Below, piece by piece: positions 1,211 to 38,786 of a DNA stretch of 64,000 bases. The position numbers were made by a program, and so were the translations under genes. Positions within the stretch are counted from its first letter, which is position 1. Each line of letters starts with the position of its first letter. This DNA is from Antedon bifida (taxonomy: Eukaryota > Echinodermata > Crinoidea > Comatulida > Antedonidae). The DNA lies in contig OY727093.1 of NCBI GenBank assembly GCA_963402885.1, forward strand, positions 15,423,501 to 15,487,500, in the 5' to 3' direction. Below the pieces are notes generated by a model that saw only the letters and a program-made list of their open reading frames with translations, had not been told where the DNA came from and did no database searches.

Positions 1211-2036
1211 ACTAGAATTTAATTCGTCACTTTGACGAATTATAGGTGATCATTTTCATCATTTTAATGAAATTAACATTTTTTAAACATGCATGTACGT
1301 TAACATGCGATCGTAAATGTACGCCATCCTATGACATGATGCATATACACTTATAGTGCTGAGTTGTACCTATTATGTTTCATATACAATATGTACAGTA
1401 TATACTGTATATCTATATACAGTGTAGCATAGGTGAAATTACGGGACCCACATCATGTTCTAATTTATTGGTATGATGGAATTATCATAATAAACTCGAA
1501 GATGACAATTTCGAAAGATAATGAATTGAGCAAATAAATATACGGATTGGAAGAGAATTTGACACGTAGAAGCGCAATGCGCGCTCTTTGAAATTTGTAT
1601 ACATTTGACGAAAGAGAGAAAAAAACTACTTTTTAACTTCAACTGACAATTTCATAATGTCACAACATCCGATAGGCCTAATTTTTATATGAATTCATAT
1701 CTACATTTCATCAGCTTTTATAATAAATTATAATCTTCAAGGTCACCTTTAATTCTGAAGAGCTGTAAGATATTTAAATGTATGGTGTAGCTGAAAATAC
1801 ACGACCTTGGTTTTTCAAGTTTTTACGCGTGATGACGTCATCAAAATAAAAATGTTGACAACTCATGAGAAAGATAATTAATTGAGCAAGCACATACTAA
1901 AATTTGTGCAAAAATTGGGTTCAAATAACGGAGATGCGCTCTATTGAATGTGATAACCCATACAAAAAGATAAAAATTACTAATTTTTAAATTCAAGTGG
2001 CCTTTTGATGACGTCATATCATTTTGTACGTCTAAT

Positions 2037-4270
2037 ACGAATACGAATAGAACTTTATTGCAATCAAACGAAAGATTGAAGTTTAACAAAAGCGTTTCAC
2101 TCAGAAAAATAAAATGCAATATACAAATACAAAAGACATTCAGAAATGTAGAACATACAATCAAAAAATTAAAACAAAATTACAATTAAAAATCACTTAT
2201 TATAAAAACAATAAATATAAAATTCAAAGACATAGGCCTGCAGGATAAAAATTTAAAAGTATTAAAAATGTTTACAAATTTAAAAAATGTTAAAAATTTA
2301 AAAAATTTTCAATAATATTTACACACAAAGGTACGGAAGGTCGCGGAAACATAACACAAAATGTTTACCATTTTTGGAATAATCCGTGATTAATAATAAA
2401 CGTTTTTGAACGGTTAGTTTTAACTCTAGGGATACAGAACTCACGGAGTCTTCTAAGATTATAAGCAGCAGAAGGAGCCTCCGGTAACAAATGATTCAAT
2501 CTGTGACTGGGGTCTTTGATTTTAACAAAAAAATCCTTGCACAGTCGAACACGGCGGTCTTCTAAGGTAGAAAAACCAAGGAAGCTGCGGGCATCGGAAT
2601 AAGTAGCATGCGGAAAAATACATTTAAAGGCCCTTCTCTGAATTTGTTCAAGTTGTTGATTCTGTTGCTTCGTAATATTTGATCCCCAAACTGGGGCCGC
2701 ATATTCTAATATTGGTCTAATGATACTAGTATAAAATTGGACAAGTGCGGGGGCATCCAGGCCTGCCCTCCGCACCTGTTTGAGAAAGTACATTCTAGAA
2801 TTACATTTACTAATCATTTGATCAATATGAGGTTGCCATGACAAATTATGAGAAATAATTACACCAAGAAGTTTAAATTCGTCAACACGTTCCAGATTAC
2901 AATCTCCAACATGGAGTGGCTCAAAAGCAGTCTTTGACCTTTTACAACTAATTCTCATCTCTTTCGTTTTCTTAATATTAAGGTACATATTGTTATCCTT
3001 AGCCCACTGGACAGTTTCGTCAAGAGTGGTTTGGAGTACAGTTGCCCCATCGTTGCCGACGCGTTCATGGATGGAGGTGTCGTCCATGTATTTCATGCAC
3101 GGCACCCCATCCAGAAGATCGTCGACAAAGATGATAAACAACATGGGCCCCAACCAGGATCCTTGGGGGATACCACCCTTAACGACTGTCCAAGGGGACA
3201 ATTCATCGCCTAGTTTAACACGTTGTTTTCTATCACATAGAAAAGCATAGATCCAAGAGATTAGATGGTCTTCGACCCCTAAATTATACAACTTATCAAT
3301 TAATATATTATGGTCAATTAAATCATAAGCCTTTTTGAAATCAAGCAATAATAATCTCATTTCATCTCCTTGGTCAGTAGCATTAAAGCATTCAGTTAAC
3401 AAAAGTATAAGAGCGTCAGTGGTAGACACACCCTTAGAGCAACCAAATTGATTCAACTTGATTTTATCTTTAATTTGGACCCAAATCATTTCCCCTACGA
3501 TCCCTTCAATAACTTTCATGGTGGTGGAAGTCAGCGAAATAGGACGCAAGTCATTCTCAAGAACCTTAGGTGGGTTAACCTTTGGAATGGGGATTATATC
3601 GGCTGACTTCCAAAGCATGGGGAGAACCCCTTCTCTTAAACTGGAGTTAACTATTGCACTTATTGGCTTGGAAAGGACATTGGCAAAATCACGTAGTACC
3701 CACGGAGGGATTCCGTCCGGGCCTGGGGCTTTATTACATTTCACAAGTTTAAGCTTAGACTCAATTGTCTCTGGCGTGATAATTAAATGGGGTGGTACTA
3801 CAGTGTTACAATCATTGGTTTTTGGTTCAAGAGGTTTGAACTCAGAAGTCAGGGACTGGAAAAAACCACTAATTTTCGTGGTAAGATCGTATACGTTCCC
3901 GTTACATAATTCATTAGCCATAGTTTTAAAGTACTTAGTACCCTTTCCGAGATTAAGAAATTGTTTAATACCCCTCCACCAAGATTTAGAATCGGACGAG
4001 AATAACTGGGCAATACTATTACGATAAAAATCACCTCTCAAAGATTTAGCCATTCGGTTAGATAAGTTTCTAAGTTTCTTATATTCGGCAGACATGGGGT
4101 CAATTGCAAAAGCTGCTTGCCGTCTAGAAACGATACCTTTAAACGCATTATTTACCCATGGCTTATCTTTAAGAAGTCTTTTAATCGTTACTTGGGGGAA
4201 GTGTAAATTTAAGAGTTCAGAAATGTTCTTATGATACAGTTCAAACTGGTTACAGCATCCATCCATTCGA
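2037..4270 (-). mobile_element. CR1/L2-like LINE, 5'-truncated, intact RT ORF
   Basis: Inserted in array unit 2 with TAAT duplicated on both sides (2033-2036 and 4271-4274). It lies on the minus strand: the truncated 5' end is at 4270 and the 3' end at 2037. The 3' end carries a short ATTCGT microsatellite-like tail after a roughly 330-bp 3' UTR. No polyA tail, which fits CR1/L2-type elements. The endonuclease domain is missing. Confidence 0.85.
2365..4266 (-). CDS. Non-LTR retrotransposon reverse transcriptase (partial ORF2)
   Basis: 633-residue uninterrupted ORF. Reverse transcriptase features: PGPDGIP at residues 181-187, RPISLTS near 241, palm motif A LLLLDFKKAYD with Asp309, GIPQGS at 365-370, and the catalytic YMDD box at 393-396 (many LINEs have FADD). 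A thumb and C-terminal region follow, including FKLLGVIIS near 464 and an LEYAAPVWG segment near 520. The protein would copy its own RNA at a nicked target. The first Met is simply the first one after the truncation point, so the natural start, with the endonuclease domain, is lost. The absence of stops suggests a fairly recent insertion. The exact clade (CR1, L2 or relative) is not resolved by eye. Confidence 0.88.
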   Translation of the reverse strand: MDGCCNQFELYHKNISELLNLHFPQVTIKRLLKDKPWVNNAFKGIVSRRQAAFAIDPMSAEYKKLRNLSNRMAKSLRGDFYRNSIAQLFSSDSKSWWRGIKQFLNLGKGTKYFKTMANELCNGNVYDLTTKISGFFQSLTSEFKPLEPKTNDCNTVVPPHLIITPETIESKLKLVKCNKAPGPDGIPPWVLRDFANVLSKPISAIVNSSLREGVLPMLWKSADIIPIPKVNPPKVLENDLRPISLTSTTMKVIEGIVGEMIWVQIKDKIKLNQFGCSKGVSTTDALILLLTECFNATDQGDEMRLLLLDFKKAYDLIDHNILIDKLYNLGVEDHLISWIYAFLCDRKQRVKLGDELSPWTVVKGGIPQGSWLGPMLFIIFVDDLLDGVPCMKYMDDTSIHERVGNDGATVLQTTLDETVQWAKDNNMYLNIKKTKEMRISCKRSKTAFEPLHVGDCNLERVDEFKLLGVIISHNLSWQPHIDQMISKCNSRMYFLKQVRRAGLDAPALVQFYTSIIRPILEYAAPVWGSNITKQQNQQLEQIQRRAFKCIFPHATYSDARSFLGFSTLEDRRVRLCKDFFVKIKDPSHRLNHLLPEAPSAAYNLRRLREFCIPRVKTNRSKTFIINHGLFQKW

Positions 4271-5078
4271 TAATGTGTATATACATTTATATCTACAACT
4301 CATTTGCTTCCATATTAAGTTAAAAAAATTGGGGGTCATCTTCCATTCTGAAGAGTTATATTCATTTTAAAAAGGCCCTACTTTTTACCATTTTTAGCAC
4401 TTTTGTACAATTAATGTGCGCATTTTGTCATTTTTAACGTGCTCGTATAGCGTTATTTTAAGTCTGAATGGACTCAAAGTCGGAGAATGTACTAAGGATT
4501 ATGAGTAGAATGTGATGTGTACATCAAATTTATTTTTTACGCTTTTTAAAAAAACATGTTTTTGCGCAGTAATTTTTTAAAACACGCAAATGGCCTATTT
4601 CATGCTCTAAATTGATCAAAACTTAATTTTGAGCTTTTTAAAATTTTAACGCGCGATTCCACACGCATGACCTTGAAACGCGCGAGTTTTTATTTGCTAA
4701 TATTTTTACCCTTGACCTGAAGTTTACGTGTAGTGAATTTCATTAATATGTGATAATGAATTATGGAGATATGATTGATAATGTGATTTCACAAAATGGC
4801 GTATAAATGACGTCACGGATGAGTGATCACGCTGAAAAGCTTATTATGTCTAAGTTAAAGTATTTGAAAGACATTGTGTAATTTTTGTGATCATTGCAAT
4901 TCAACTTTTTGAGATAATTGTTACACAAAAAGTGTACAGAAAGAATAATAACAACAAGGAAAACAATAATAAAGATTTTGTACAATAACAATAGGTGATC
5001 ATTTTATTCTAAATGATCACCTAATAAAGATTTCATACAATAACAATAGGTGATCATTTTATTCTAAATGATCACCTA

Positions 5079-6597
5079 ACTAGAATTTAATTCGTCACTT
5101 TGACGAATTATAGGTGATCATTTTTATAAATTTATTGACATTAATATTTTTCAAACATGCACGTATGTTAACATACGATCGGAAAATGTTGATGTATGCC
5201 ATCCTATTATACCCTTATAGTGCTTAGTTGTGCCTATTATATGCCATATACATTATGTACAGTATATACTGTATATCTATATCAGTGTAGCATTGGTGAA
5301 ATTACGGACACACATCATGTTCTAAGTTTTTGGCACTGATGACATTATCAAAATAAACTTGTGGATACCAATATCGAAAGATAATGAATTGAGCAATAAA
5401 ATATAACAATTGGAAGACAATTTGGCACGTAGAAGTGTGGTGCGCGCTCTTTAAAATATGTATAACTTTGAAGAAAGAGATGAAAAAAATACTTTTTAAC
5501 TTCAACTGGCCATATGATAACTTCATAACATTCGATAGGCTTAATTTTTATATGCATTCATATCTACATTTCACCAGCTATCATAATAAGTTATAAACAT
5601 CAAGGTCAACTTTAATTCAGAAGAACTGTAAGGTATTCAACTATACGTTGTAGGTGAAATTACGTAACCACCGTTATTCAAATTTTAAGACGTGATGACG
5701 TCATCAAAATGAAAATATTGGCAACTCATGAGTAACATAATTGGTTGAGGTAGAATATATTAAAAATTTAAAAAAAATCGAGCACAGATAAGCGACTTGC
5801 GCTCTGTTGAATATGGTGGTCTATGACAAAGTGGGAAAAAACCCTATTTTAAAAATTCATGTGGCCCAATGATGACGTCATACCATTTTGTACGTCTAAT
5901 GTGTATATTCATTTATATCTACAACTCATTAACTTCCATAATAAGTAAAAAAAAATGGGGGTCATCTTCCATTCTGAAGAGTTATATTCATTTTAAAAAG
6001 GCCTTATTTTTTACCATTTTTAGCACTTTGATACAATTAATGTGCGCATTTTGTCATTTTTAACGTGCTCATATAGCGTTATTTTAAGTCGGAATGGACT
6101 CAAATTTGGTGAATGTATTAAGGAAGATGAGTAGAATGCAATTTGTACAAAACAATTTTATTTTTTACGCTTCCTATGTACGCACGCGCAAAAACGTGTT
6201 TTTGCGCAGTAATTTTTTGAAACATGCAAATGGCCTAATTCATGCTCTAAATTGATCAAAACTTAATTTTGAGCATTTCAAATTTTTAACGCGCGATTTC
6301 ACGCGCATGACCCTACGTGCGCGTGTGTTTTTATTTGCTAATATTTTTACCCTTGACCTGAAGTTTACGTGTAGTGAATTTCATTATTATGTGATAATGA
6401 ATTATGGAGATATGATTGATAATGTGATTTCGCAAAATGGCGTATAAATGACGTCACGGATGAGTGATCACGCTGAAAAGCTTATTATGGCTAAGTTAAA
6501 GTATTTAAAAGACATTGTGAAATTTTGGTAATCATTGACATTAAACTTTTTGAGATATTTGTTACACAAAAAGTGTACAGAAAGAATAAAAAGAAAA
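5079..6597 (+). repeat. Array A unit 3 (A-type, no 3' hairpin)
   Basis: Full 5' end (hairpin, box TAGGTGATCA). The 3' side stops after the conserved GTACAGAAAGAA tract and runs directly into the next ACTAGA start, so the tail module is absent. Confidence 0.78.
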
Positions 6598-8189
6598 ACT
6601 AGAATTTAATTCGTCACTTTGACGAATTATAGGTGATCATTTTTATAAATTTATTGACATTAATATTTTTTAAACATGCACGTATGTTAACATACGATCG
6701 GAAAATGTTGATGTATGCCATCCTATTATACGCTTATAGTGCTTAGTTGTGCCTATTATATGTCATATCACATTATGTACAGTATACTGTATATCTATAT
6801 ACAGTGTAGCATTGGTGAAATTACGGACACACATCATGTTCTAAGTTTTTTGCACTGATGACATTATCAAAATAAACTTGTGGATACCAATATCGAAAGA
6901 TAATGAATTGAGCAATAAAATATAACAATTAGAAGAAAATTTGGCACGTAGAAGCGCGGTGCGCGCTCTTCAAAATGTGTATAACTTTGACGAAAGAGAT
7001 GAAAAAAATACTTTTTAACTTCAACTGGCCATATGGTAACTTCATAACATTCGATAGGCTTAATTTTTATATGCATTCATATCTACATTTCACCAGCTCT
7101 CATAATAAGTTATAAACATCAAGGTCAACTTTAATTCAGAAGAGCTGTAAGGTATTCAACTATACGTTGTAGGTGAAATTACGTAACCCCCGTTATTCAA
7201 ATTTTAAGATGTGATGACGTCATCGAAATGAAAATATTGGCAACTACTGAGTAACATAATTGGTTGAGGTAGAATATATTAAAAATTTTTAAAAAATCGA
7301 GCACAGATAAGCGAGTTACGCTCTGTTGAATATGGTGGTCTATGACAAAATGGGAAAAAACCCTATTTTAAAAATTCATGTGGCCAAATGATGACGTCAT
7401 ACCATTTTGTACGTCTAATGGGTATATACATTTATATCTACAACTCATTAACTTCCATAATAAGTTTAAAAAAATGGGGGTCATCTTCCATTCTGAAGAG
7501 TTATATTCATTTTAAAAAGGCCTTATTTTTTACCATTTTTAGCACTTTTGTACAATTAATGTGCGCATTTTGTCATTTTTAACGTGCTCGTATAGCGTTA
7601 TTTTAAGTCTGAATGGACTCAAATTTAGTGAATGTACTAAGGAAGATGAGTAGAATGCAATTTGTACAAAAAAATTGTATTTTTTACGCTTTCTATGTAC
7701 GCACGCGCAAAAACGTGTTTTTGCGCAGTAATTTTTTAAAACACGCAAATGGCCTAATTCATACTCTAAATTGATCAAAACTTAATTTTGGGCTTTTTAA
7801 ATTGTTAACGCGCGATTTCACGCGCATGACCTTGAAACGCGCAAGTTTTTATTTTCTAATATTTTTACCTTGACCTGAAGTTTACTTGTAGTGAATTTCA
7901 TTAATATGTGATAATGAATAGTAAAGATATGATTGATATTGTGATTTCACAAAATGGCGTATAAATGACGTCACGGATGAGTGATCACGCTGAAAAGCTT
8001 ATTATGTCTAAGTTAAAGTATTTGAAAGACATTGTGTAATTTTTGTGATCATTGCCATTCAACTTTTTGAGATATTTGTTACACAAAAAGTGTACAGAAA
8101 GAATAAAAAAAATAAAAAAATAAATAAATAAAGATTTCATACAATAACAATAGGTGATCATTTTATTCTAAATGATCACCTAAAAATAA
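6598..8189 (+). repeat. Array A unit 4 (A-type, own 3' hairpin)
   Basis: Starts ACTAGA, hairpin and box TAGGTGATCA. It closes with the matching hairpin at 8151-8182, then a short A-rich spacer before the next start. Confidence 0.78.
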
Positions 8190-9786
8190 ACTAGACATGT
8201 AACTCGTCACTTTGACGAGTTTGGTTATCCGCCGCGCAAGTGGTGCAACATTAACATTAAGGGGATAGGTTGAGGACAAAAGGAAGTGTTCACGTATGAC
8301 CTGAACTGAAGAATATGATATGTTGTTATTGCTGAATTTTATTATTTAGATTCATATATAGTATACACAGTATAATCTGTATCCATATCACATACAGTGT
8401 AGAATAGGTGAAATTACGGGACCCGCTATTTTTTGCAATTTTTAACATGTTGACGGTTTTAAAATGAAACGCGAAGGTAGCAATTTCGGAAGAAAATTAT
8501 CTCAGCAACAGCATATTAACGTGTAGAAGAAATTTGAATACGTGAAATATTGATGCGCGCTCTTTTAAATGTAATGAATTATGACGCAAATGATGAAAAT
8601 ACGACCTTTTTTATTTAACTGGCCATATGATGACGTCACAACATCCGATTGGCAAAATTTTTACATGATTTCGTATCTACAATCCAATAGCTTCCAGAAA
8701 ACGTTTTAATCGTGATTAACAGATTAAAATTTACTGTAAAGATGAAATTAATGCCACACGTAATTTAAATTTTTAGGCATGATGACGTCATAAAAATTAA
8801 CTCATGCGAAAGATAGTTGATTGACCTAGACAATATCAAAATCGGGGTGAAAATGGAAAACGAATAAGTGGAGATGCGCTCTATTCAATGTGATGAGCTA
8901 TGACGAAAGATACAAAAATCCTAAATTTTATATTCGTGTGGCCATACGATGACGTCACAATGTCCGGTTAGCCATATTAATACCTGATCCGATATCTACA
9001 ACTCATCAACTTCCAGAATATGTCATCCACAAAAAGTTGACCGTGTAGTTTAGAAATTACGACTGTTTAAAAAAAGGCATATTTTTAACGAATTTTTGAA
9101 CTTTTTCATCAAAAATGCGCGCAAATTGTCCAATTCGACGTGCTTGTATGACGTAACTTTAGGTCGAAATTGTTTAAAATTTAGTAAAATTACTAGAAAA
9201 GGCTGGAAAAACATAAATCACGCAAAAAAAATATGTTTTCAATGCTACGTGCGCACCGCACACGTAAAAAATTGCGCACGCGTGGGAATTTTTTACATGC
9301 TTAAAACGACATGAAATGCGTAGAAAGTTGATTAGAAATTAATTTTGCGCATTTTGAAATTTTAAATGCGCGTGCACGCGTAACTTTGTGTAAAACACGC
9401 AATTTTTTTTCAACAGAAAGTTAGCGCATGATATAAATTAAACTTTTGGAAAGTTTCAATTTGAAATGTTATTTGGTTTTCGACCTAAGTTGAATACGAG
9501 GAAATCGTTAAATCACGCGTAAGTCACGTTGCGCAATTGTAAACGTCATGAAAAGCTTCGCAGCACATCTTCATGTGCATGACGATATGTTGAGAAAGTT
9601 ACAAAATGTTATGTTTGCAAGTTTTAGAGAAAAGCGTTCCACAAAAATCATACAGAAAGAAAGAAGCCAAATAAAAAGATGATTTCGTAGAATCACAAGA
9701 GGTTATCCTGCAACTTCGTTGCGGATAACCAATAAAGATTTTATACAATAACAATAGGTGATCATTTTATTCTAAATGATCACCTA
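8190..9786 (+). repeat. Array A unit 5 (B-type, two stacked tails)
   Basis: 5' hairpin with stem ACTCGTCA, then box GGTTATCCGC near 8223. The first tail hairpin (9701-9730) has right arm GCGGATAACC, the exact complement of the box. A second, foreign tail of A specificity follows at 9755-9786. Confidence 0.8.
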
Positions 9787-11268
9787 ACTAGAATTTAATT
9801 CGTCACTTTGACGAATTATAGGTGATCAGTTTTATCATTTTACTGAAATTAATTTTTTTTAAACATGCACGTACGTTAACATACGAACGGAAAATGTTGA
9901 TGTATGCCATCCTATTATATGCTTATAGTGCTGAGTTGTGCCTATACGCCATATACAATATGTACAGTATATACTGTATATCTATATACAGTGTAGCATA
10001 GGTGAAATTACGGGACACACATGTTCTAATTTTTTGGCATGATGACGTTATCAAACTAAACTTTAAGATGACAATTTCGAAAGATAATTAATTGAGCAAA
10101 ACAATATAAGATTTGGAAAAAAATTTGGCACGTAGAAGCGCTGTGCGCGCTCTTTGAATTGTGTATAACTTTGACGAAAAATATGAAAAAACTACTTTTT
10201 CACTTCAACTGGCCATATGTTAACGTCACAACATCCGATAGGCTTAATTTTTATATGAATTAATATCTACATTTCATCAGCTTTCATAATAAATTATAAT
10301 CATCAAGGTAACCTTCAATTCTGAAGAGCTGTAAGATATTCAAATTTACTGCGAAGGTGAAATTACACGGCCTACGTTATTCAAGTTTTTACGCGTGATG
10401 ACGTCATTAAAATGAAGATAGTGTCAACTCATGATAAAGATAATTAATTAAGCAAGCACATACTGAAAGTTGTGCGAAATTCGAGCACACATAACCAAGA
10501 TGCGCTCTGTTGAATGTGATAATCTACACAAAAAGATAACAAATCCTAATTTTTAAATTCAAGTGGCCATTTGATGACGTCAAAACATTTTGTACGTAAA
10601 ATGTGTACATGAATTCATATCTACAACTCAATGGCTTCCAGAATAAGTTAAAAAAATCGGGGGTCATCTTGCATTCTGAAGAATTATTTTCATTTTAAAA
10701 AAGACCTATTTTTCACCATTTTCAGAACTTTTGTAAAATTAATGTGCGCATTTTGTCATTTTTAACATGCTCGTATAGCGTTATTTTAAGTCGGAACTGA
10801 CTCAAATTTGGTGAATGTACTAAGGATGGTGAGTAGAATGAGATTTAAGTATCGCGCGCGCAAAAACGCATTTTTGCGCAGTAATTTTTTGAAACACGCA
10901 AATGGCCTAATTCATGCTCTAAATTGATCAAAACTTAATTTTGAGCGTTTTAAATTTTTAACGCGCGATATCACGCGCATGAACCTACGTGCGCGTGCGT
11001 TTTTATTTGCTAATATTTTTACCCTTGATCTGAAGTTTACGTGTAGTGAATTTCATTAATATGTGATAATGAATTATGGAGATATGATTGATAATGTGAT
11101 TTCGCAAAATGGCGTATAAATGTCGTCATGGATGAGTGATCACGCTGGAAAGGATTAAGTTATATTATTTGAAAGATATTCTGAAATTTTTGTAATCATT
11201 GACATTAAACTTTTTGAGATAATTGTTACACAAAATAGTGTACAGAAACAATAAAAAGAAAAAAAATA
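9787..11268 (+). repeat. Array A unit 6 (A-type, no 3' hairpin)
   Basis: Begins with the AATTCGTCA-stem hairpin and a TAGGTGATCA box. It ends after TACAGAAACAATAAAAAG and a short A-rich run with no tail hairpin before the next B-type start. Confidence 0.76.
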
Positions 11269-21990: not shown

Positions 21991-22073
21991 AGAACATCAT
22001 TTTAGGGAATATTACTTATTTCTGAATTTTCATCTGAATTGTTAACTACACTTTTACTGATTATCTACGAACC

Positions 22074-24444: not shown

Positions 24445-24556
24445 TGCTTGCCGCGAGTAAACTGATCACTCGCAATGCTCGCGTAGTAGAATAGTGTTAA
24501 TGTATGTATGTTAGTTAAATATTAGTTAAAAAATTAGTAAAAAATCTTATGTTAGT

Positions 24557-24562
24557 AATAAA
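24557..24562 (+). terminator. Candidate polyadenylation signal AATAAA
   Basis: First AATAAA after the stop codon of the PHD-FLYWCH-MULE gene, about 113 bases downstream. A second AATAAAG occurs near 24648. Either could be used. Confidence 0.45.
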
Positions 24563-26002: not shown

Positions 26003-27202
26003 CAAATAAATATAAGAATTGGAAGAGAATTTGGCACGTAGAAGCGCTGTGCACGCTCTTTGAAATTTGTATAACTTTGACGAAAAAGATGAAAAAACTA
26101 CTTTTTAACTTCAACTGGCCATATGTTAACATCACAACATCGGATAGGCTTAATTTTTATATGAATTCATATCTACATTTCATCAGCTTTCATAATAAAT
26201 TATAATTATCAAAGTAACCTTTAATTCTAAAGAGCTGTAAGATATTCAAATTTACGGCGAAGGTGAAATTACACGACCTACGTTATTCAAGTTTTTACGC
26301 GTGATGACGTCATCAAAATAAAAATAGTGGCAGGTCATGAGAAAGTCAATTAATTGAGCAATCACATACTAAAATTTGAGCAAAAATCAGGCACAAATTA
26401 TTAGAGATGCGTTCTATTGAATGTGATAAAATATGACAAAAGAGAAAAAAAACTTAATTTTAAATTGAAGTGGCCATTTGATGACGTCACAACATTTTGT
26501 ACGTCAAATGTGTACATGAATTCATATCTACAACTCAATGGCTTCCCGAATAAGTTAAAAAAAATGGGGGTCATCTTGCATTCTGAAGAGTTATTTTCAT
26601 TTTAAAAATGCCTTATTTTTCACCATTTTCAGCACTTTGATGCAATTAATTTGCGCATTTTGTCATTTTTAACGTGCTCGTATAGCGTTATCTTAAGTCG
26701 GAATGGACTCAAAATCGGTGAATGTACTAAGAATTGTGAGTAGATTGTGATTTATACATCAAATTTTAATTTTTACGCTTTTTAAGAATCGCGTGCGCAA
26801 AAACGTGTTTTTGCGCAGTAATTTTTTGAAACGCGCAAATGGCCTAATTCATGCTCTAAATTGATCAAAACTTAATTTTGAGCGTTCTAAATTTTTAACG
26901 CGCGATTTCACGTGCATGACCTTGAAACGCGCAACTTTTTATTTGCTAATATTTTTACACTTGACCTGAAGTTTACGTGTAGTGAATTTCATTAATATGT
27001 GATAATGAATTATGGAGATATGATTGATAATGTGATTTCACAAAATGGCGTATAAATGACGTCACGGATGAGTGATCACACTGGAAAGCTTATTAGGATT
27101 AAGTTATATCATTTGAAAGATATTCTGAAATTTTTGTAATCATTGACATTAAACTTTTTGAGATAATTGTTACACAAAATAGTGTACAGAAACAATAAAA
27201 AG
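26003..27202 (+). repeat. Array B unit B0 (A-type, 5'-truncated)
   Basis: Nearly identical to 13391-14590, at a constant offset of 12612. No tail hairpin. The left junction shares only a CAAATAAATA-like stretch with the array A copy. Confidence 0.8.
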
Positions 27203-28829
27203 ACTAGACATGTAACTCGTCACTTTGACGAGTTTGGTTTTCCGCCGCGCAAGTGGTGCAACATGAACGTGTAACGACGTACCTTACCGTACCGAACATT
27301 AAGGGGATAGGTTGAGGACAAAAGGAAGTGTCCACGTTGGCATTATGACCTGAACTGAAGAATATGATATGTTTTTATTGCCGAATTCTATTATTTTGAT
27401 TCATATATAGTATACACAGATATATCTGTATCCATATCACATACAGTGTAGAATAGGTGAAATTACGGGACCCGCTATTTATTGCAATTTTTAACATGGC
27501 GACGGCATCAAAATGAAATACAAAGATAGCAATTTCGGAAGGATATTATCTCAGCAACAACATATTAACGTGCAAAAGAAATTTGAATACGTGAAATATT
27601 GATGCGCGCTCTTTTAAATGCAATGAATTATGACGCAAAAGATGAAAATACGACTTTTTTCATTTAACTGGCCATATGATGACGTCACAACATCCGATTG
27701 GCAAAATTTTCACATGATTTCGTATCTAAAATCCAATAGCTTCCAGAAAACGTTTTAATCGTGATTATCAAATTTTATTCTTACGAGCTATAACAGATTA
27801 AAATTTACTGTAAAGATGAAATTAATGCCACACGTAATTTAAATTTTTAGGAATGATGACGTCAAAAAAATTAAAATATTTATAATTCATGCGAAAGACA
27901 GTTGATTGACCTAGACAATATCAAAATTTGGGTGAAAATGGAAAACGGATAAGTGGAGATGCGCTCTATTAAATGTGATGAGCTATGACGAAAGATACAA
28001 AAATCCTAAATTTTATATTAGCGTGGCCATACGATGACGTCACAATGTCCGGTTAGCCATATTAATATATGATCCGATATCTACAACTCATTAACTTCCA
28101 GAAAATGTCATCCACAAAAAGTTGACCGTGCAGTTTAGAAATTACGATTGTTTAAAAAAAGGCATAATTTTGACAATTTTTTTAACTTTTTCAACAAAAA
28201 CTCGCGCAAATTGTCCAATTCCACGTGCTCGTATGACGTTACTTTAAGTCGAAATTGTTTAAAAGTTGGTAAAATTACTAGAAAATGCTGGAAAAACATA
28301 AATCACGCGAAAAAAATATGTTTTTAATGCTACGTGCGCACCGCACACGTAAAAATTTGCGCACGCGTGGGAATTTTTTACATGCTTAAAACGACATGAA
28401 ACGCGTAGAAACTTGATTAGAAAATAATTTAGCGCATTTTGAAATTTTAAATGCGCGTGCGCGCGTAACTTTGTGTAAAACACGCAATTTTGGTTCGACA
28501 GAAAGTTAGCGCATGATATAAATTAAATTTGTGCAAAGTTTCAATATAAAATGTTATTTGGTTTTTGACCTATGTTAAATACGAGAAAATCGTTAAATCG
28601 CGCGTACGTCACGTTGCGCAATTGTAAACATCATGAAAAGCTTCGCTTGACGACGTTACATAAATGTCAAAATGTTAACATAGTTCACAAAATGTTATGT
28701 TTGCAAGTTTCAGAGAAAAGCGATACACAAAAATCATACAGAAAGAAAGAAGATAAATAAAAAGTTGATGATGATGATGATTTCGTACAATCACAAGAGG
28801 TTTTCCTGCAACTTCGTTGCGGAAAACCA
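27203..28829 (+). repeat. Array B unit B1 (GGTTTTCCGC type)
   Basis: Box GGTTTTCCGC near 27237. The tail hairpin at 28799-28828 has right arm GTTGCGGAAAACC, complementary to the box. A GATGATGATGAT run precedes the tail. Confidence 0.82.
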
Positions 28830-30453
28830 ACTAGACATGTAACTCGTCACTTTGACGAGTTTGGTTTTCCGCCTCGCAAGTGGTGCAACATGAACGTGTA
28901 ACGACGTACCTTACCGTACCGAACATTAAGGGGATAGGTTGAGGACAAAAGGAAGTGTCCACGTTGGCATTATGACCTGAACTGAAGAATATGATATGAT
29001 TTTATTGCTGAATTCTATTATTTTGATTCATATATAGTATACACAGTATAATCTGTATCCATATCACATACAGTGTAGAATAGGTGAAATTACGGGACCC
29101 GCTATTTATTGCAATTTTTAACATGGCGACGGCATCAAAATGAAATACAAAGATAGCAATTTCGGAAGGATATTATCTCAGCAACAACATATTAACGTGC
29201 AAAAGAAATTTGAATACGTGAAATATTGATGCGCGCTCTTTTAAATGCAATGAATTATGACGCAAAAGATGAAAATACGACTTTTTTCATTTAACTGGCC
29301 ATATGATGACGTCACAACATCCGATTGGCAAAATTTTCACATGATTTCGTATCTAAAATCCAATAGCTTCCAGAAAACGTTTTAATCGTGATTATCAAAT
29401 TCTATTCTTACGAGCTATAACAGATTAAAATTTACTGTAAAGATGAAATTAATGCCACACGTAATTTAAATTTTTAGGAATGATGACGTCAAAAAAATTA
29501 AAATATTTATAATTCATGCTTAAGACAGTTGATTGACCTAGACAATATCAAAATTTGGGTGAAAATGGAAAACGGATAAGTGGAGATGCGCTCTATTAAA
29601 TGTGATGAGCTATGACGAAAGATACAAAAATCCTAAATTTTATATTAGCGTGGCCATACGATGACGTCATAATGTCCGGTTAGCCATATTAATATATGAT
29701 CCGATATCTACAACTCATTAACTTCCAGAAAATGTCATCCACAAAAAGTTGACCGTGCAGTTTAGAAATTACGACTGTTTAAAAAAAGGCATAATTTTGA
29801 CAATTTTTTTAACTTTTTCAACAAAAACTCGCGCAAATTGTCCAATTCCACGTGCTCGTATGACGTTACTTTAAGTCGAAATTGTTTAAAAGTTGGTAAA
29901 ATTACTAGAAAAGGCTGGAAAAACATAAATCACGCGAAAAAAATATGTTTTTAATGCTACGTGCGCACCGCACACGTAAAAATTTGCGCACGCGTGGGAA
30001 TTTTTTACATGCTTAAAACGACATGAAACGCGTAGAAAGTTGATTAGAAAATAATTTAGCGCATTTTGAAATTTTAAATGCGCGTGCGCGCGTAACTTTG
30101 TGTAAAACACGCAATTTTGGTTCGACAGAAAGTTAGCGCATGATATAAATTAAATTTGTGCAAAGTTTCAATATAAAATGTTATTTGGTTTTTGACCTAT
30201 GTTAAATACGAGAAAGTCGTTAAATCGCGCGTACGTCACGATGCGCAATTGTAAACATCATGAAAAGCTTCGCTTGACGACGTTACATAAATGTCAAAAT
30301 GTTAACATAGTTAACAAAATGTTATGTTTGCAAGTTTTAGAGAAAAGCGTTACACAAAAATCATACAGAAAGAAAGAAGATGACAAAAAAGATGATGATG
30401 ATGATTTCGTACAATCACAAGAGGTTTTCCTGCAACTTCGTTGCGGAAAACCA
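28830..30453 (+). repeat. Array B unit B2 (GGTTTTCCGC type)
   Basis: Same structure as B1, with a matching tail hairpin at 30423-30452. Confidence 0.82.
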
Positions 30454-32071
30454 ACTAGACATGTAACTCGTCACTTTGACGAGTTTGGTTTTCCGCCGCG
30501 CAAGTGGTGCAACATGAACGTGTAACGACGTACCTTACCGTACCGAACATTAAGGGGATAGGTTGAGGACAAAAGGAAGTGTCCACGTTGGCATTATGAC
30601 CTGAACTGAAGAATATGATATGTTTTTATTGCTGAATTCTATTATTTTGATTCATATATAGTATACACAGTATAATCTGTATCCATATCACATACAGTGT
30701 AGAATAGGTGAAATTACGGGACCCGCTATTTATTGCAATTTTTAACATGGCGACGGCATCAAAATGAAATACAAAGATAGCAATTTCGGAAGGATATTAT
30801 CTCAGCAACAACATATTAACGTGCAAAAGAAATTTGAATACGTGAAATATTGATGCGCGCTCTTTTAAATGCAATGAAATATGACGCAAAAGATGAAAAT
30901 ACGACTTTTTTCATTTAACTGGCCATATGATGACGTCACAACATCCGATTGGCAAAATTTTCACATGATTTCGTATCTAAAATCCAATAGCTTCCAGAAA
31001 ACGTTTTAATCGTGATTATCAAATTTTATTCTTACGAGCTATAACAGATTAAAATTTACTGTAAAGATGAAATTAATGCCACACGTAATTTAAATTTTTA
31101 GGAATGATGACGTCAAAAAAATTAAAATATTTATAATTCATGCGAAAGACAGTTGATTGACCTAGACAATATCAAAATTTGGGTGAAAATGGAAAACGGA
31201 TAAGTGGAGATGCGCTCTATTCAATCTGGTGAGCTATGACGAAAGATACAAAAATCCTAAATTTTATATTCGCGTGGCCATACGATGACGTCACAATGTC
31301 CGGTTAGTCATATTAATACCTGATACGATATCTACAACTCATCTACTTCCAGAATATGCCATCCACAAAAAGTTGACCGTCTAGTTTAGAAATTACGATT
31401 GTTTAAAAAAATGCATATTTTAAACGAATTTTTTAACCTTTTCATAAAAAACGCGCGCAAATTGTCCAATTCGACGTGCTCGTATGACGTATCTTTAAGT
31501 CGAAATTGTTTAAAATTTGGTAAAATTACTAGAAAAGGCTGGAAAAACATAAATCACGCGAAAAAAATACGTTTTCAATGCTACGTGCGCACCGCACACG
31601 TAAAAATGTGCGCACGCGTGGGAATTTTTGACATGCTTAAAACGACATGAAACGCGTAGAAAATTGATTATAAATTAATTTTGCGCATTTTGAAATTTTA
31701 AATGCGCGTGCGCGCGTAACTTTGTGTAAAACACGCAATTTTTTTTCCACAGAAAGTTAGCGCATGATATAAATTAAATTTGTGCAAAGTTTCAATATAA
31801 AATGTTATTTGGTTTTTGACCTATGTTAAATACGAGAAAATCGTTAAATCGCGCGTACGTCACGTTGCGCAATTGTAAACATCATGAAAAGCTTCGCTTG
31901 ACGACGTTACATAAATGTCAAAATGTTAACATAGTTCACAAAATGTTATGTTTGCAAGTTTCAGAGAAAAGCGATACACAAAAATCATACAGAAAGAAAG
32001 AAGATAAATAAAAAGTTGATGATTTCGTACAATCACAAGAGGTTTTCCTGCAACTTCGTTGCGGAAAACCA
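30454..32071 (+). repeat. Array B unit B3 (GGTTTTCCGC type)
   Basis: Matching tail hairpin at 32041-32070. The 3' half (about 31215 onward) carries several differences from B1/B2 and resembles the inverted unit, which points to exchange between copies. Confidence 0.8.
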
Positions 32072-33630
32072 ACTAGACATGTAACTCGTCACTTTGACGA
32101 GTTTGGTTTTCCGCCGCGCAAGTGGTGCAACATGAACGTGTAACGACGTACCTTACCGTACCGAACATTAAGGGGATAGGTTGAGGACAAAAGGAAGTGT
32201 CCACGTTGGCATTATCACCTGAACTGAAGAATATGATATGTTTTTATTGCTGAATTCTATTATTTTGATTCATATTTATTATAGTATACACAGTATAATC
32301 TGTATCCATATCACATACAGTGTAGAATAGGTGAAATTACGGGACCCGCTATTTATTGCAATTTTTAACATGGCGACGGCATCAAAATGAAATACAAAGA
32401 TAGCAATTTCGGAAGGATATTATCTCAGCAACAACATATAAACGTGCAAAAGAAAATTGAATACGTGAAATATTGATGCGCGCTCTTTTAAATGCAATGA
32501 ATTATGACGCAAAAGATGAAAATACGACTTTTTTCATTTAACTGGCCATATGATGACGTCACAACATCCGATTGGCAAAATTTTCACATGATTTCGTATC
32601 TAAAATCCAATAGCTTCCAGAAAACGTTTTAATCGTGATTATCAAATTTTATTCTTACGAGCTATAACAGATTAAAATTTACTGTAAAGATGAAATTAAT
32701 GCCACACGTAATTTAAATTTTTAGGAATGATGACGTCAAAAAAATTAAAATATTTATAATTCATGCGAAAGACAGTTGATTGACCTAGACAATATCAAAA
32801 TTTGGGTGAAAATGGAAAACGGATAAGTGGAGATGCGCTCTATTAAATGTGATGAGCTATGACGAAAGATACAAAAATCCTAAATTTTATATTAGCGTGG
32901 CCATACGATGACGTCACAATGTCCGGTTAGCCATATTAATATATGATCCGATATCTACAACTCATTAACTTCCAGAAAATGTCATCCACAAAAAGTTGAC
33001 CGTGCAGTTTAGAAATTATGACTGTTTAAAAAAAGGCATAATTTTGACAATTTTTTTAACTTTTTCAACAAAAACTCGCGCAAATTGTCCAATTCCACGT
33101 GCTCGTATGACGTTACTTTAAGTCGAAATTGTTTAAAAGTTGGTAAAATTACTAGAAAAGGCTGGAAAAACATAAATCACGCGAAAAAAATATGTTTTTA
33201 ATGCTACGTGCGCACCGCACACGTAAAAATTTGCGCACGCGTGGGAATTTTTTACATGCTTAAAACGACATGAAACGCGTAGAAACTTGATTAGAAAATA
33301 ATTTAGCGCATTTTGAAATTTTAAATGCGCGTGCGCGCGTAACTTTGTGTAAAACACGCAATTTTGGTTCGACAGAAAGTTAGCGCATGATATAAATTAA
33401 ATTTGTGCAAAGTTTCAATATAAAATATTATTTGGTTTTTGACCTATGTTAAATACGAGAAAATCGTTAAATCGCGCGTACGTCACGTTGCGCAATTGTA
33501 AACATCATGAAAAGCTTCGCTTGACGAGGTTACATAAATGTCAAAATGTTAACATAGTTCACAAAATGTTATGTTTGCAAGTTTCAGAGAAAAGCGATAC
33601 ACAAAAATCATACAGAAAGAAAGAAGATAA
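32072..33630 (+). repeat. Array B unit B4 (GGTTTTCCGC type, no tail)
   Basis: Box GGTTTTCCGC, body like B1. It ends in GAAAGAAAGAAGATAA without a tail hairpin and is joined directly to the next ACTAGA. Confidence 0.8.
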
Positions 33631-33745
33631 ACTAGACATGTAACTCGTCACTTTGACGAGTTTGGTTATCCGCCGCGCAAGTGGTGCAACATTAACATTA
33701 AGGGGATAGGTTGAGGACAAAAGGAAGTGTTCACGTTGGCATTAT

Positions 33746-34413
33746 TACGAGCCATGGTAACCATTTCTTGAGTTATCCAAGCTGGCCTGTTTCTTTTTTT
33801 ACTTTTGACTTTAGGGATACAATCGTTGATAGTGGCGAGAAAGAGGTCTTTAAAATTTTCCCACATTTCCTCACAGTCTGATTGTTCCAGGCACAGTCCC
33901 CAAGGAACCGCCCCCAACGTTGTAAAAAGATCGTCATGGTCACATTTACTATATTGATAATAATATCTATCTACAGGTTTAACTTTACTGCATCTAGCGT
34001 TAATATTAAAATAAACCCCAAGGTGGTCACTTGTACTGAGACCGGGATGACTTCTAAAATTACATACAATGTCAGGGTTGTTGCACAAGACCAGATCAAT
34101 AATGCTACTTTTGGTGTTAGAAACACGAGTAAAAAAATCAACAAATTGTATAGTATCAAGTGGAGCAATAATTTCTTTAAATTTCTTATAAACTAAGGGA
34201 CTATCGACACCGTAATCATAATTAAAATCACCAGTTAAAATTATACCACAGTACTTATGTAAAATAGATAGGATAAAATCAACGACATCGTGAAATTGAT
34301 TGAGCCAATCGTCATTTGAACTCGGTGGCCTATAAACAGCACATATTAAAACGTTAAAATTGTTATTTACAGTTATTTCAATAATTTTGACCTCAATGTT
34401 AGTAGGAAAGTGT
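33746..34413 (-). pseudogene. LINE endonuclease domain, C-terminal part, frameshifted
   Basis: Minus-strand reading continues the endonuclease after a frameshift near 34415. Visible motifs are CAVYRPPSSN, LTGDFNYD, SSIIDLVL and TSDHLGV; the last holds the conserved SDH catalytic triad end. The reading then enters the linker and is cut at 33746. The first Met in this frame is at 34088, but the homology begins earlier, so this is a continuation and not a separate gene. Confidence 0.72.
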
Positions 34414-34414
34414 G

Positions 34415-35218
34415 TTAGTGTCTTGAACGGTCTTTTCTGTACACAACGAATGAGTCTGGAAACAGTTCCGTACTATCAATAGAGGAGTCCAGCCACGTTT
34501 CTGTGACAATCAAGATGTCCAATTCATCAATTGCGATACGCGCATGGAATTCTTCGATCTTATTCACCACACTTCTGGCGTTAAATAAAGCAACTTGAAT
34601 AAGGTTAGTTTCAAAGATGGAAGAATCAGTTGATGTATTGCTGGATGCAAATGACGATATACTGTTGTTGTTCAATGACTTGTCAAAAAATGAGTCCGAT
34701 AGTTGTGGTAGGGAGCAGATGTTACACGCCCATGGATTATCTTGATAAAACACATAACTATCGCTGCTCATAGGTATGCACTTGATATGAAATATGTGAT
34801 GACATTCACAGCAAATCAGACATTTTTGATTGCGTCTCGTCGTTTTAGCGCAAGATTCACATGTATTCTTCGTACTATTACCGTTTCCAATATGCTGGCT
34901 CTTGTTCCTATGCATCAGCTCTGGGCCTGGGTGAGGATGAATGTCGCCACTAACCAACAAACATAGGTTAAAAGTCGAATAATGATTGGCGTAATATCTC
35001 ACAGGCCTACTTATATATCGTTTTCTTGTGGTGTTATTAATGCTAGCACATGTATGCAAAAAAAGAGAACATGACTCACCGACACGGATGTTATAGTGAA
35101 CATTTTCCTTATGATAGCTGAGTTGACGAACCAAACAATCAAATGAACCTGGTTGAAATATGATTGATCTCAGAAATAATGTGCAGAGTAATGTCATCAA
35201 ACAACTAAATAGAGCCAT
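34415..35218 (-). CDS. LINE N-terminal protein: 2A-like motif, PHD-like finger, endonuclease start
   Basis: 267 residues. Residues 1-22 are hydrophobic and signal-like. Residues 92-99 read DIHPHPGP, a variant of the 2A-like ribosome-skipping motif (consensus D-V/I-E-x-N-P-G-P; many CR1-type LINEs have HPNPGP). Here the Asn is His, which would be expected to weaken or abolish skipping. Residues 120-168 form a Cys/His-rich PHD-like finger (C120, C123, C133, C136, H144, C147, C165, C168). From about 205 (VALFNARSVVNK, then VTETWLD) the endonuclease domain begins. The frame is lost after residue 267; the rest of the endonuclease continues in another frame downstream. Probably a defective copy. 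Confidence 0.8.
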   Translation of the reverse strand: MALFSCLMTLLCTLFLRSIIFQPGSFDCLVRQLSYHKENVHYNIRVGESCSLFLHTCASINNTTRKRYISRPVRYYANHYSTFNLCLLVSGDIHPHPGPELMHRNKSQHIGNGNSTKNTCESCAKTTRRNQKCLICCECHHIFHIKCIPMSSDSYVFYQDNPWACNICSLPQLSDSFFDKSLNNNSISSFASSNTSTDSSIFETNLIQVALFNARSVVNKIEEFHARIAIDELDILIVTETWLDSSIDSTELFPDSFVVYRKDRSRH

Positions 35219-36974
35219 TATGTTATTAATTAAGGCAACTCAAATAGGTCCAGATATGTGTTTGTTGTACCGGTACAGCTAATCAACGAGCGAGCCAGTG
35301 TACTACACAGTACTACAGCAGCTGGTTTGGCGCGAAATGCAAATCACGGCGTGATCCGGAATTCCTTAGTTCCGATGGCACAAATACATCAAAAAAAACA
35401 TCTAAAATTCACGAAATTGGACCACAGATCAAACATAAATACCATCAAGAATGTTCACAAGTGAAATAATAACGACTGGAAACATCCAAAACACCAAAGC
35501 AAAGTCAAATTCACTAGGAAAAACTGAATTCCTAACACACTGAGGAGCACGATTAAAAACACGTCCGTGTCGTTCAAGTGCTTCTTCTTCACTCTTCATT
35601 AACCCCATACAAAAACCATCGGAGACAATTCTGGGGACGGTGCGGCCATACACACCAACTAACATAAACGTTTATTCATAACATTGTACAATGCAATATC
35701 TTGCATGAATCGGACATTTCGCTACCAATGTAGCAACATTGATTAACAAAATCAAAATTTAATAGTGTGGCGTGTTGACCGCGAATGTGGCGTGTTGACC
35801 GAAATGTAATGAATTATGACGCAAAAGATAAAAATACGACCTTTTTTATTTAACTGGCCATATGATGACGTCACAACATCCGATTGGCAAAATTTTTACA
35901 TAGTTTCGTATCTACAATCCAATAGCTTCCAGAAAAAGTTTTAATCGTGATTATCACATTTTATTCTTACGAGCTATAACAGATTAAAATTTACTGTAAA
36001 GATGAAATTAATGCCACACGTGATTTAAATTTTTAGGCATGATGACGTCAAAAAAATTAAAATATTTTTAACTCCTGCGAAAGATAGTTGATTGACCTAG
36101 ACAATATCAAAATCGGGGTGAAAATGGAAAACGGATAAGTGGAGATGCGCTCTATTCAATGTGGTAAGCTATGACGAAAGCTACAAAAATCCTAAATTTT
36201 ATATTCGCGTGGCCATACGATGACGTCACAATGTCCGGTTAGCCATATTGATACATGATCCTATATCTACAACTCATCAACTTCTAGAATATGTCATCCA
36301 CAAAAAGTTGACCGTGCAGTTTAGAAACTACGACTGTTTAAAAAAAGGCATAATTTTGACAAATTTCTGAACTTTTTCATCAAAAACGCGCGCAAATTGA
36401 CCAATTCGACGTGCTCGTATGACGTAACCTTAAATCCAAATTGTTTAAAAGTTGGTAAAATTACTAGAAGAGGCTGGAAAAACATAAATCACGCGAAAAA
36501 TATATGTTTTTAATGCTACGTGCGCACCGCACACGTAAAAATTTGCGCACGCGTGGGAATTTTTGACATGCTTAAAATGACATGAAACGCGTAGAAAGTT
36601 GATTAGAAAATAATTTTGCGCATTTTGAAATTTTAAATGCGCGTGCGCGCGTAACTTTATGTAAAACACGTAATTTTTTTTCAACAGAAAGTTAGCGCAT
36701 GATATAAATTAAACTTTTGGAAAGTTTCAATTTGAAATGTTATTTGGTTTTCGACCTATGTTAAATACGAGGAAATCGTTAAATCACGCGTAAGTCACGT
36801 TGCGCAATTGTAAACGTCATGAAAAGCTTCGCAGCACATCTTCATGTGCATGACGATATGTTGAGAAAGTTACAAAATGTTATGTTTGCAAGTTTTAGAG
36901 AAAAGCGTTCCACAAAAATCATACAGAAAGAAAGAAGATCAAGAAAAAGATGTTGATTTCGTACAATCACAAGA

Positions 36975-37134
36975 GGTTATCCTGCAACTTCGTTGCGGAT
37001 AACCAATAAAAAGTTGATGATGATGATTTCGTACAATCACAAGAGGTTTTCCTGCAACTTCGTTGCGGAAAACCAAAAAATAAAGATTTGATACAATAAC
37101 AATAGGTGATCATTTTATTCTAAATGATCACCTA
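36975..37134 (+). other. Cluster of three 3' hairpin tail modules
   Basis: Hairpins of three specificities in a row: GGTTATCC/GGATAACC (36975-37004), GGTTTTCC/GGAAAACC (37045-37074) and TAGGTGATC/GATCACCTA (37103-37134). The order is the same as at the end of array A: own type, GGTTTTCC, then TAGGTGATC. Confidence 0.83.
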
Positions 37135-37162
37135 ATAAATAAAAAAACAAATGTTTATAATT
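37135..37162 (+). repeat. Satellite fragment between array B and inverted unit
   Basis: AATAAAAAAACAAATGTTTA belongs to the end module of the TAGGCCTA satellite. Confidence 0.7.
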
Positions 37163-38786
37163 GGTTTTCCGCAACGAAGTTGCAGGAAAACCTCTTGTGA
37201 TTGTACGAAATCATCATCATCATCACCATCATCATCTTTTTTTTCATCTTCTTTCTTTCTGTATGATTTTTGTGTAACGCTTTTCTCTAAAACTTGCAAA
37301 CATAACATTTTTTTAACTATGTTGACATTTTGACATTTATGTAACGTCGTCAAGCGAAGCTTTTCATGATGCTTACAATTGCGCAACGTGACGTACGCGC
37401 GATTTAACGATTTTCTCGTATTTAACATAGCTCGACAACCAAATAACATTTCAACTTGAAACTTTGCAAAAGTTTAATTTATATTATGCGCTAACTTTCT
37501 GTGGAAAAAAAATTGCGTGTTTTACACAAAGTTACGCGCGCACGCGCATTTAAAATTTCAAAATGCGCAAAATTAATTTATAATCAACTTTCTACGCGTT
37601 TCATGTCGTTTTAAGCATGTCAAAAATTCCCACGCGTGCGCACATTTTTACGTGTGCGGTGCGCACGTAGCATTGAAAACGTATTTTTTTCGCGTGATTT
37701 ATGTTTTTCCAGCCTTTTCTAGTAATTTTACCAAATTTTAAACAATTTCGACTTAAAGATACGTCATACGAGCACGTCGAATTGGACAATTTGCGCGCGT
37801 TTTTTATGAAAAGGTTAAAAAATTCGTTTAAAATATGCCTTTTTTTAAACAGTCGTAATTTCTAAACTAGACGGTCAACTTTTTGTGGATGACATTTTCT
37901 GGAAGTTAATGAGTTGTAGATATCGGATCATATATTAATATGGCTAACCGGACATTGTGACGTCATCGTATTGCCACGCTAATATAAAATTTAGGATTTT
38001 TGTATCTTTCGTCATAGCTCATCACATTTAATAGAGCGCATCTCCACTTATCCGTTTTCCATTTTCACCCAAATTTTGATATTGTCTAGGTCAATCAACT
38101 GTCTTTCGCATGAATTATAAATATTTTACGTCATCATTCCTAAAAATTTAAATTACGTGTGGCATTAATTTCATCTTTACAGTAAATTTTAATCTGTTAT
38201 AGCTCGTAAGAATAAAATTTGATAATCACGATTAAAACGTTTTCTGGAAGCTATTGGATTTTAGATACGAAATCATGTGAAAATTTTGCCAATCGGATGT
38301 TGTGACGTCATCATATGGCCAGTTAAATGAAAAAAGTCGTATTTTCATCTTTTGCGTCATAATTCATTGCATTTAAAAGAGCGCGCATCAATATTTCACG
38401 TATTCAAATTTCTTCTACACGCTAATACGTTGTTGCTGAGATAATTTCTTTTCGGAAATGCTACCTTCGCGTTTCATTTTAAAACCGTCAACATGTTAAA
38501 AATTGCAATAAATAGCGGGTCCCGTAATTTCACCTATTCTACACTGTATGTGATATGGATACAGATTATACTGTGTATACTATATATGAATCAAAATAAT
38601 AGAATTCAGCAATAAAAACATATCATATTCTTCAGTTCAGGTCATAATGCCAACGTGGACACTTCCTTTTGTCCTCAACCTATCCCCTTAATGTTCGGTA
38701 CGGTAAGGTACGTCGTTACACGTTCATGTTGCACCACTTGCGCGGCGGAAAACCAAACTCGTCAAAGTGACGAGTTACATGTCTAG
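37163..38786 (-). mobile_element. Solitary inverted unit inserted in satellite
   Basis: A complete B-type unit (1624 bp) on the minus strand, from hairpin GGTTTTCC...GGAAAACC (37163-37192) to CTAG at 38783-38786. Its box (GGTTTTCCGC on its own strand) matches its tail. Flanks rejoin the satellite sequence ATGTTTATAA / TTTTTATTTTAGC seen uninterrupted near 25235, 39385, 41175 and 56830. Two extra T bases remain at the junction. This defines the mobile unit and its insertion at a T (A) run. Confidence 0.85.

Follow-up and report, generated by a model that had tools for sequence, protein, structure and literature searches.

Nested Helitron2-type elements with complementary ends matched family by family in the crinoid Antedon bifida

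The stretch analyzed here, hereafter the window, comprises 64,000 nt of the crinoid Antedon bifida (contig OY727093.1, positions 15,423,501-15,487,500; assembly GCA_963402885.1). It contains two arrays of related repeat units, an inverted unit and a unit of a separate family, all of which are very probably non-autonomous rolling-circle transposons of the Helitron2/Helentron type (HINE-like), new as families but of a kind already known. Read on the plus strand, every unit with an intact start displays a conserved head made of CTAG, about 8 nt, a hairpin with the core YTCGTCACTTTGACGAR, and a short box. The window contains 17 exact copies of the hairpin core, 16 on the plus and one on the minus strand, against none expected from 100 dinucleotide shuffles, and one further, diverged head lies at 57436; the box adjoins the hairpin in all 18 heads. 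The counterparts of the heads are 21 tails, hairpins whose outer arm is complementary to a box (19 on the plus strand, one in the inverted unit and one in the separate family). We distinguish five end types by their boxes: T (TAGGTGATCA), B (GGTTATCCGC), C (GGTTTTCCGC), D (AGTTATCCGC) and E (TAGGTTATATGCATT). The initial annotation of this DNA, which had described boxes paired with hairpins, placed the head at the 5' end and the tail at the 3' end. The orientation is in fact reversed, the head being the 3' end and the tail the 5' terminus, and all units except the inverted one run 5' to 3' on the minus strand.

In their true orientation, the elements start with TT followed by an asymmetric terminal inverted repeat (ATIR) inside a terminal hairpin, and finish with the box, which is the 3' ATIR, a second hairpin, and 7-10 nt closing with CTAG-3'. 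The 5' ATIR is located 0-2 nt from the TT end in types T, B, C, and D, and the distance from the 3' ATIR to the CTAG end is 29-31 nt in all five types. The predicted 3' stem lies 8 nt (T), 10 nt (B, C, and D), or 7 nt (E) from the 3' end. When one representative per type was folded at 37 °C, the predicted energy of the 5'-terminal hairpin was −9.7 to −12.0 kcal/mol for T, B, C, and D, and a weaker −5.8 kcal/mol for E. Behind the 5' end comes a T-rich tract, accompanied by TGATGA-type repeats in B, C, and D, and the T body carries internal repeats that are about 72% identical. ATIRs, a 5'-terminal hairpin, a 3' hairpin, and insertion into A/T- or T-rich sites without target-site duplication together identify Helitron2/Helentron elements, and the anatomy agrees with the published Helitron2 definition; the earlier assignment to Helentron/Helitron2-like rolling-circle elements, with ends kept complementary family by family, is thereby upheld. 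Canonical Helitron1, which has 5'-TC, CTRR-3', no 5' hairpin, and no inverted repeats, was considered and rejected: the CTAG-3' end would fit, but the 5' end is TT with a hairpin and an ATIR.

The ends of each unit are matched to one another. All eight 10-mers that the initial annotation had listed are present where it had placed them. Eleven units have their own tail straight after them, and in every one the box matches the reverse complement of the unit's own terminal arm exactly over 12-15 nt. These units are T1, T3, B1, B2, B3, C2, C3, C4, D3, E, and the inverted C; no related element separates head and tail in any of them, and T1 and B3 contain other kinds of insert. In each of the 11 the longest exact match between the head and the reverse-complemented tail is the box itself, with 13 nt in T, 12 nt in B and in C, 14 nt in D, and 15 nt in E. 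Heads and tails of different types match over 4-10 nt, and B against C, whose boxes are one base apart, over 6 nt. Mononucleotide shuffles, run for one unit of each type (five of the 11), reached the observed match length in none of 2000 trials for T3, C2, D3, and E and in one of 2000 for B1. The one-base A/T switch in the box is mirrored in the terminal arm, as had been noticed; more generally, the one-base differences between B and C and between D and B are matched at both ends, at three places if the hairpin partner is included. Four end types had been claimed; E, at 57436-58131, adds a fifth that follows the same matching rule. The observation of unit-specific matched ends is confirmed.

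The first array, on the minus strand like the second, comprises units of types T, B, C, and D. T1 (1211..5023) has its CTAG 3' end at 1212, its box at 1243, and its 5' hairpin at 4992-5023; a fragment of a long interspersed nuclear element (LINE) lies inside it at about 2032-4271, and a non-LTR (long terminal repeat) retrotransposon reverse transcriptase open reading frame (ORF; Pfam RVT_1) inserted in T1 spans 2365-4299 on the minus strand. T2 (5079..9786) is interrupted by T3 (6598..8182; box at 6630, 5' hairpin 8151-8182) and B1 (8191..9730; box at 8223, 5' hairpin 9701-9730), and its 5' hairpin is, by the bracket parse described below, that at 9755-9786. T4 (9787..13085; 5' hairpin 13054-13085) hosts B2 (11270..13029; box at 11302, 5' hairpin 13001-13029). 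T5 (13086..20985; 5' hairpin 20954-20985) hosts C1 (14592..20925; 5' hairpin 20896-20925) and, within C1, a nest of D-type elements (16145..20852) with heads at 16145, 17681, and 19203, 5' hairpins at 20768-20793 and 20828-20852, and one tail missing. The array closes with an extra T-type 5' hairpin (21015..21046) that has no head in the window.

The second array is hosted by T6 (26003..37134), which has lost its 3' end and keeps its 5' hairpin at 37103-37134. It holds C2 (27204..28828), a duplicate of C1 without the D nest, followed by C3 (28831..30452), C4 (30455..32070), and C5 (32073..37074; 5' hairpin 37045-37074), the last of which hosts B3 (33632..37004; 5' hairpin 36975-37004). A foreign segment inside B3 (about 33749-35801) replaces about 270 bp of its body and contains ORFs that match an endonuclease-reverse transcriptase domain (Exo_endo_phos_2) and a sub-threshold C1-like zinc finger; it is probably part of another LINE. 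The inverted C-type unit (37163..38786, plus strand) sits in a host repeat. The E-type element (57436..58131, minus strand) has a CTAG 3' end, an imperfect hairpin, and its own box, and its 5' end carries an exact 15-nt complement of the box and an imperfect hairpin, the terminus given being putative.

These arrays are nested like brackets. If each head opens a bracket and each tail closes one, 15 of the 16 plus-strand heads receive a non-crossing tail of the same type; with shuffled tail labels the number of matched heads averages 8.98 and never exceeds 13 in 2000 shuffles. The test excluded the inverted unit and E, and the headless bodies (before 1178 and at 26003) each contribute one tail and no head. 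Where a tail stands directly next to a head, it is of the head's own type in nine of nine cases. The initial annotation had restricted matching to units whose body keeps a tail; the matching stands, but the implied loss of tails does not, as most missing tails are displaced downstream by nested insertions. Tail-less units were also considered as truncated copies, a reading rejected on finding displaced tails for all heads but one. From the head of T5 to its tail, the ends form a mirror image: heads in the order T C D D D, then tails in the order D D C T.

The arrays contain a duplicated segment. T5-C1 (13391-16144) and T6-C2 (26003-28756) are 99.5% identical over 2755 columns, with 11 mismatches and two gaps; the D nest comes directly after the segment in T5-C1 and is lacking after it in T6-C2. 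Within the window a leader variant, GATTTGATAC, precedes just two tails, those at 20954 and 37103, and the parse assigns them to these same duplicates, T5 and T6. This shared private leader is stronger support for nesting than the bracket test restricted to non-adjacent pairs.

Empty sites show that the elements insert at A^TTT with precise joints and without target duplication. The host repeat of the inverted C unit is present in four empty copies (25247, 39396, 41188, and 56844), and the joint can be read as A^T, the element then running from TT to CTAG, or equally as T^T, with Ts common to both ends. C2 supplies the empty site for the D nest of C1, and B3 entered C5 at the very base that the D nest used in C1, again with a precise empty site; the T6 tail provides one junction only. 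For the six nested insertions whose host is in the window, the distances from the end of the host's outer arm to the joint are 55, 55, 59, 59, 69, and 72 nt. Of seven units examined, C2, C4, B1, B2, and T3 carry TTTTTATTT in the tract behind the 5' end, with a second copy in B2 at 1185, and C3 and D3 lack it. The shorter TTTATTT is present at further places in T3 (1309), B2 (1187 and 1450), and D3 (665 and 1231), none of them with a nested element.

The body sequences place these ends in lineages. A tree of the bodies separates T from B, C, and D with a support of 100 (identity between these bodies is 60-64%) and recovers D with 98 and C with 87, C forming one clade inside a paraphyletic B, in which B2 groups with C (95) and B1 with B3 (99). 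The matched changes therefore amount to about four, namely T versus the rest, D versus B (one box base), B versus C (one base), and the separate E family; independent changes are few, and the many copies are not independent evidence. These roughly four changes support the matching, though they do not separate continuing selection from inheritance with certainty. The pairwise box comparisons, which are not independent of each other, show no difference at 100 positions in T and at 30 in D, compared with about 11.7 and 3.6 expected from body divergences of 0.117 and 0.119; only these T and D counts carry weight, and both types are also set apart by the body tree. The "exchangeable specificities" put forward in the initial annotation are not borne out: end type tracks body lineage, so joint inheritance accounts for the data without exchange.

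Based on the above data, we consider a mechanism in which matching would be required for movement. Once replication reaches the 3' end, the rolling-circle machinery would have to recognize the element's own 5' end, which would call for complementary ATIRs; according to a published proposal, the 3' ATIR may, by pairing, open the 5' hairpin and set the end point. Copies with unmatched ATIRs would be immobile, and changes in an ATIR would persist only if matched at the other end. The arrays are explained by the T-rich tract, which offers a preferred A^TTT target 55-72 nt in from the 5' end of each host; later elements landed there in the same orientation and split hosts from their 5' ends, giving nested brackets. 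The sequence itself shows the anatomy, the matched ends, the insertion sites, and the nesting; we infer that the ends pair in this way, that matching is under selection, and that an autonomous partner encoding Rep-helicase (Y2 HUH plus helicase) resides elsewhere.

Predicted energies are in line with pairing. At 37 °C the duplex between the two ATIRs (−14.4 to −16.9 kcal/mol) exceeds the 5' hairpin (−5.8 to −12.0 kcal/mol) in stability in all five types, a condition for the 3' ATIR to open the hairpin; these values are predictions for naked DNA. An element's own pair forms the most stable ATIR duplex in five of five rows of a 5 × 5 energy matrix, and at the same temperature the predicted cross-type duplexes fall short of own pairs by at least 2.8 kcal/mol. 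A pairing model fits the strict match and also E, with its imperfect hairpin and 15-nt ATIR match. In IS200/IS605, the HUH transposase TnpA works with interactions between guide and cleavage-site sequences at each hairpin; the comparison with guide-target end recognition would be one of resemblance only.

Several observations weigh against the picture of matched, paired, and nested ends. The energies set a within-strand hairpin against a duplex of distant segments and are not strictly comparable, and when longer 5' ends were folded at 20 °C and compared with default-temperature duplexes, the hairpin was the more stable in T, B, C, and D, a reversal of the 37 °C result that stems from the longer ends and the lower folding temperature. 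The absence of box differences within B and within C is circular, because these groups are defined by the box. With directly adjacent pairs removed, six of seven heads still match, but 118 of 5000 shuffles do equally well, which makes the non-adjacent part of the nesting test only moderate when taken alone. One D head (16145 by the parse) is without a remaining tail, and four of the 19 plus-strand tails are without a head in the window: 1179, from a unit starting before the window, 37103, belonging to T6 with its lost 3' end, and the extra T tails 5047 and 21015, although with two T tails side by side the type alone does not identify the extra one. The TTTATTT words of D3 are outside the 5' tract, at 665 and 1231, and received no insertion; as D is nested in D without the motif, the motif alone is insufficient to explain landing. 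Finally, no Rep-helicase was found in the window, the unit bodies included, among the 20 of 30 stop-to-stop ORFs of at least 100 aa that were scanned.

The matched ends could have other origins than selection for pairing. If the families simply began with matched ATIRs that were copied unchanged, without continuing constraint, one would expect what the tree displays, with end type following body lineage and C a single clade, and the small number of independent matched differences (about four in the window) would cause no surprise. We nevertheless regard inheritance alone as rather unlikely, since the one-base differences between B and C and between D and B are matched at both ends, and the boxes show no difference where the T and D bodies differ by about 12%, albeit in pairs that are not independent. 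A more credible alternative, though one we do not favour, is that the box is a protein-binding site at both ends and that base pairing between them is unused. Inverted repeats bound by a transposase are common, the data from the window suit pairing and protein recognition of the same sequence at both ends alike, and this holds also for the imperfect hairpin and perfect 15-nt ATIR match of E; such a site would, however, need a separate protein specificity for each family, as related bodies bear very different boxes.

Other objections concern the arrays rather than the ends. Four C units, 97-99% identical, abut head to tail and could be a single multimeric insertion, which raises the possibility that rolling-circle replication produced the arrays in tandem and that 5' ends were lost at random, without any nesting of insertions. 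For the arrays as a whole this is improbable in view of the mirror order of types, the duplicate C2 with its exact empty site where C1 has the D nest, the two different inserts at one base in C1 and C5, and the private leader common to the displaced tails assigned to T5 and T6. A misjoining of haplotypes or repeats during assembly, for which the identity between T5-C1 and T6-C2 would be suitable, allelic copies being able to reach such values, is more improbable still: the flanks of the two copies differ, T4/B2 and the D nest for one copy against a satellite-like repeat and tandem C units for the other, and the joints inspected are clean insertions.

Much of this has precedents. Helitron2 was defined by Bao and Jurka in 2013 with a 5' ATIR 0-2 bp from the 5' end and within a hairpin, a 3' ATIR 20-30 bp from the 3' end and immediately upstream of the 3' hairpin, and ATIRs of 8-15 bp whose pairing was proposed to occur at the end of rolling-circle replication; compensatory ATIR changes were described between the related Helitron-1N1_CQu and Helitron-1N2_CQu (PMC3627910). 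The present elements share the ATIRs, the 5'-terminal hairpin, the 3' ATIR upstream of the 3' hairpin, and the matched changes, and differ in their insertion at A^TTT, as opposed to between TTTT and T/C in Helitron-1N1_CRe, in their new family sequences, and in forming nested arrays of several end types (PMC3627910). HINE/DINE-1 elements, which are non-autonomous Helentrons with an oyster example, Cg_HINE (PMC7492417), resemble them in subterminal inverted repeats (subTIRs) of 11-15 bp, an inverted repeat by the 5' subTIR, a short microsatellite behind the 5' module, internal repeats, and a 3' stem-loop (PMC4067079, PMC2374699, PMC7492417), as well as in T-rich targets without target modification (PMC4067079); a compensatory change between species was suggested for the DINE-1 3' stem (PMC2374699). 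By comparison, our elements end in CTAG-3' and have their 3' subTIR 29-31 nt from the 3' end, versus 38-60 bp in mite HINEs. Proto-Helentron-Pi of Phytophthora infestans likewise has 5'-TT, 3'-CTAG, and insertion between A and T without duplication but encodes Rep/helicase, measures about 14 kb, and is described as structurally like typical Helitrons, and the passage on it does not report matched subTIRs of this sort (PMC4067079). Helentrons sensu stricto combine an endonuclease domain with Rep-helicase and insert at TT; the junctions here read equally as A^T, with TT in the element, or as T^T. The suggestion of a new phenomenon must consequently be withdrawn: ATIRs, compensatory mutations, and a pairing role were proposed in 2013, and the central principle of the finding is already in print (PMC3627910, PMC4067079, PMC2374699).

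The initial interpretation is thus partly supported. What deserves to be retained from the present analysis is the bracket-like nesting, together with the landing tract close behind the 5' end. The fungal FoHeli elements also carry extra short 5' ends (31-85 nt in the examples), for which self-insertion of the Helitron2 type was proposed (PMC5148889); here the nests themselves persist, and their hosts and inserts, with matched ends of four types, still stand in bracket order. Self-insertion just inside the 5' end builds bracket-like arrays, as proposed for the multiple 5' ends of the fungal elements. No description of such arrays with several matched end types appeared in the titles and abstract openings of the open-licence papers listed. 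In the window the matching of Helitron2-type ends within each family can be followed base by base, and the arrays record which element was inserted after which and are suited to testing whether mobility depends on matching end repeats.

End bypass or composites with several 5' ends, both discussed for fungal elements (PMC5148889), would produce leftover ends such as those listed above. The irregular ends adjoin ends of the same type, the missing D tail lying among D units and the extra T tails 5047 and 21015 beside T tails. Together with the weaker cross-type duplexes, this placement is consistent with, though far from proof of, a cognate end code, in which within nests of several end types a 3' end would stop replication only at a 5' end of its own type. 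We consider such a code doubtful; if it were true, the T-rich landing tract would let related families nest without destroying one another's mobility.

The surroundings of the arrays contain other mobile and repetitive sequences. Clear matches among the scanned ORFs are to reverse transcriptase, LINE endonuclease, LTR-retrotransposon RNase H, integrase zinc-binding, and MULE transposase domains, the rest being weak. Between the arrays, at 22038-24440 on the plus strand, lies an apparently split gene with a PHD-like finger just below the cut-off and a MULE transposase domain. ORFs at equivalent places in two C units (30196-30525, plus strand; 37132-37473, minus strand) match DUF3504 weakly, below the curated cut-off, possibly by chance. 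A scan of viral contigs with the head hairpin matched 11 loci, which seem likely to be chance matches given the large collection.

Satellite-like repeats occupy 25000-26000, 38800-41200, and 55800-56900, and copies of a stretch around AATGTCGCCCTCTATTAATGAGG occur at 25247, 38800, 39396, 41188, and 56844, one of which received the inverted C unit. Further along, similar stretches rich in GAAGACC and GGTCTTCG at 45400-45480 and 53640-53910, inverted relative to each other, bound about 8.5 kb as judged by eye; this segment appears to interrupt an LTR-retrotransposon-like element, and its ends may be those of another transposon. The last part of the window (62000-64000) is GC-rich (0.557) and repetitive, with many GGCTAGGCC-like words, and differs from the remainder.

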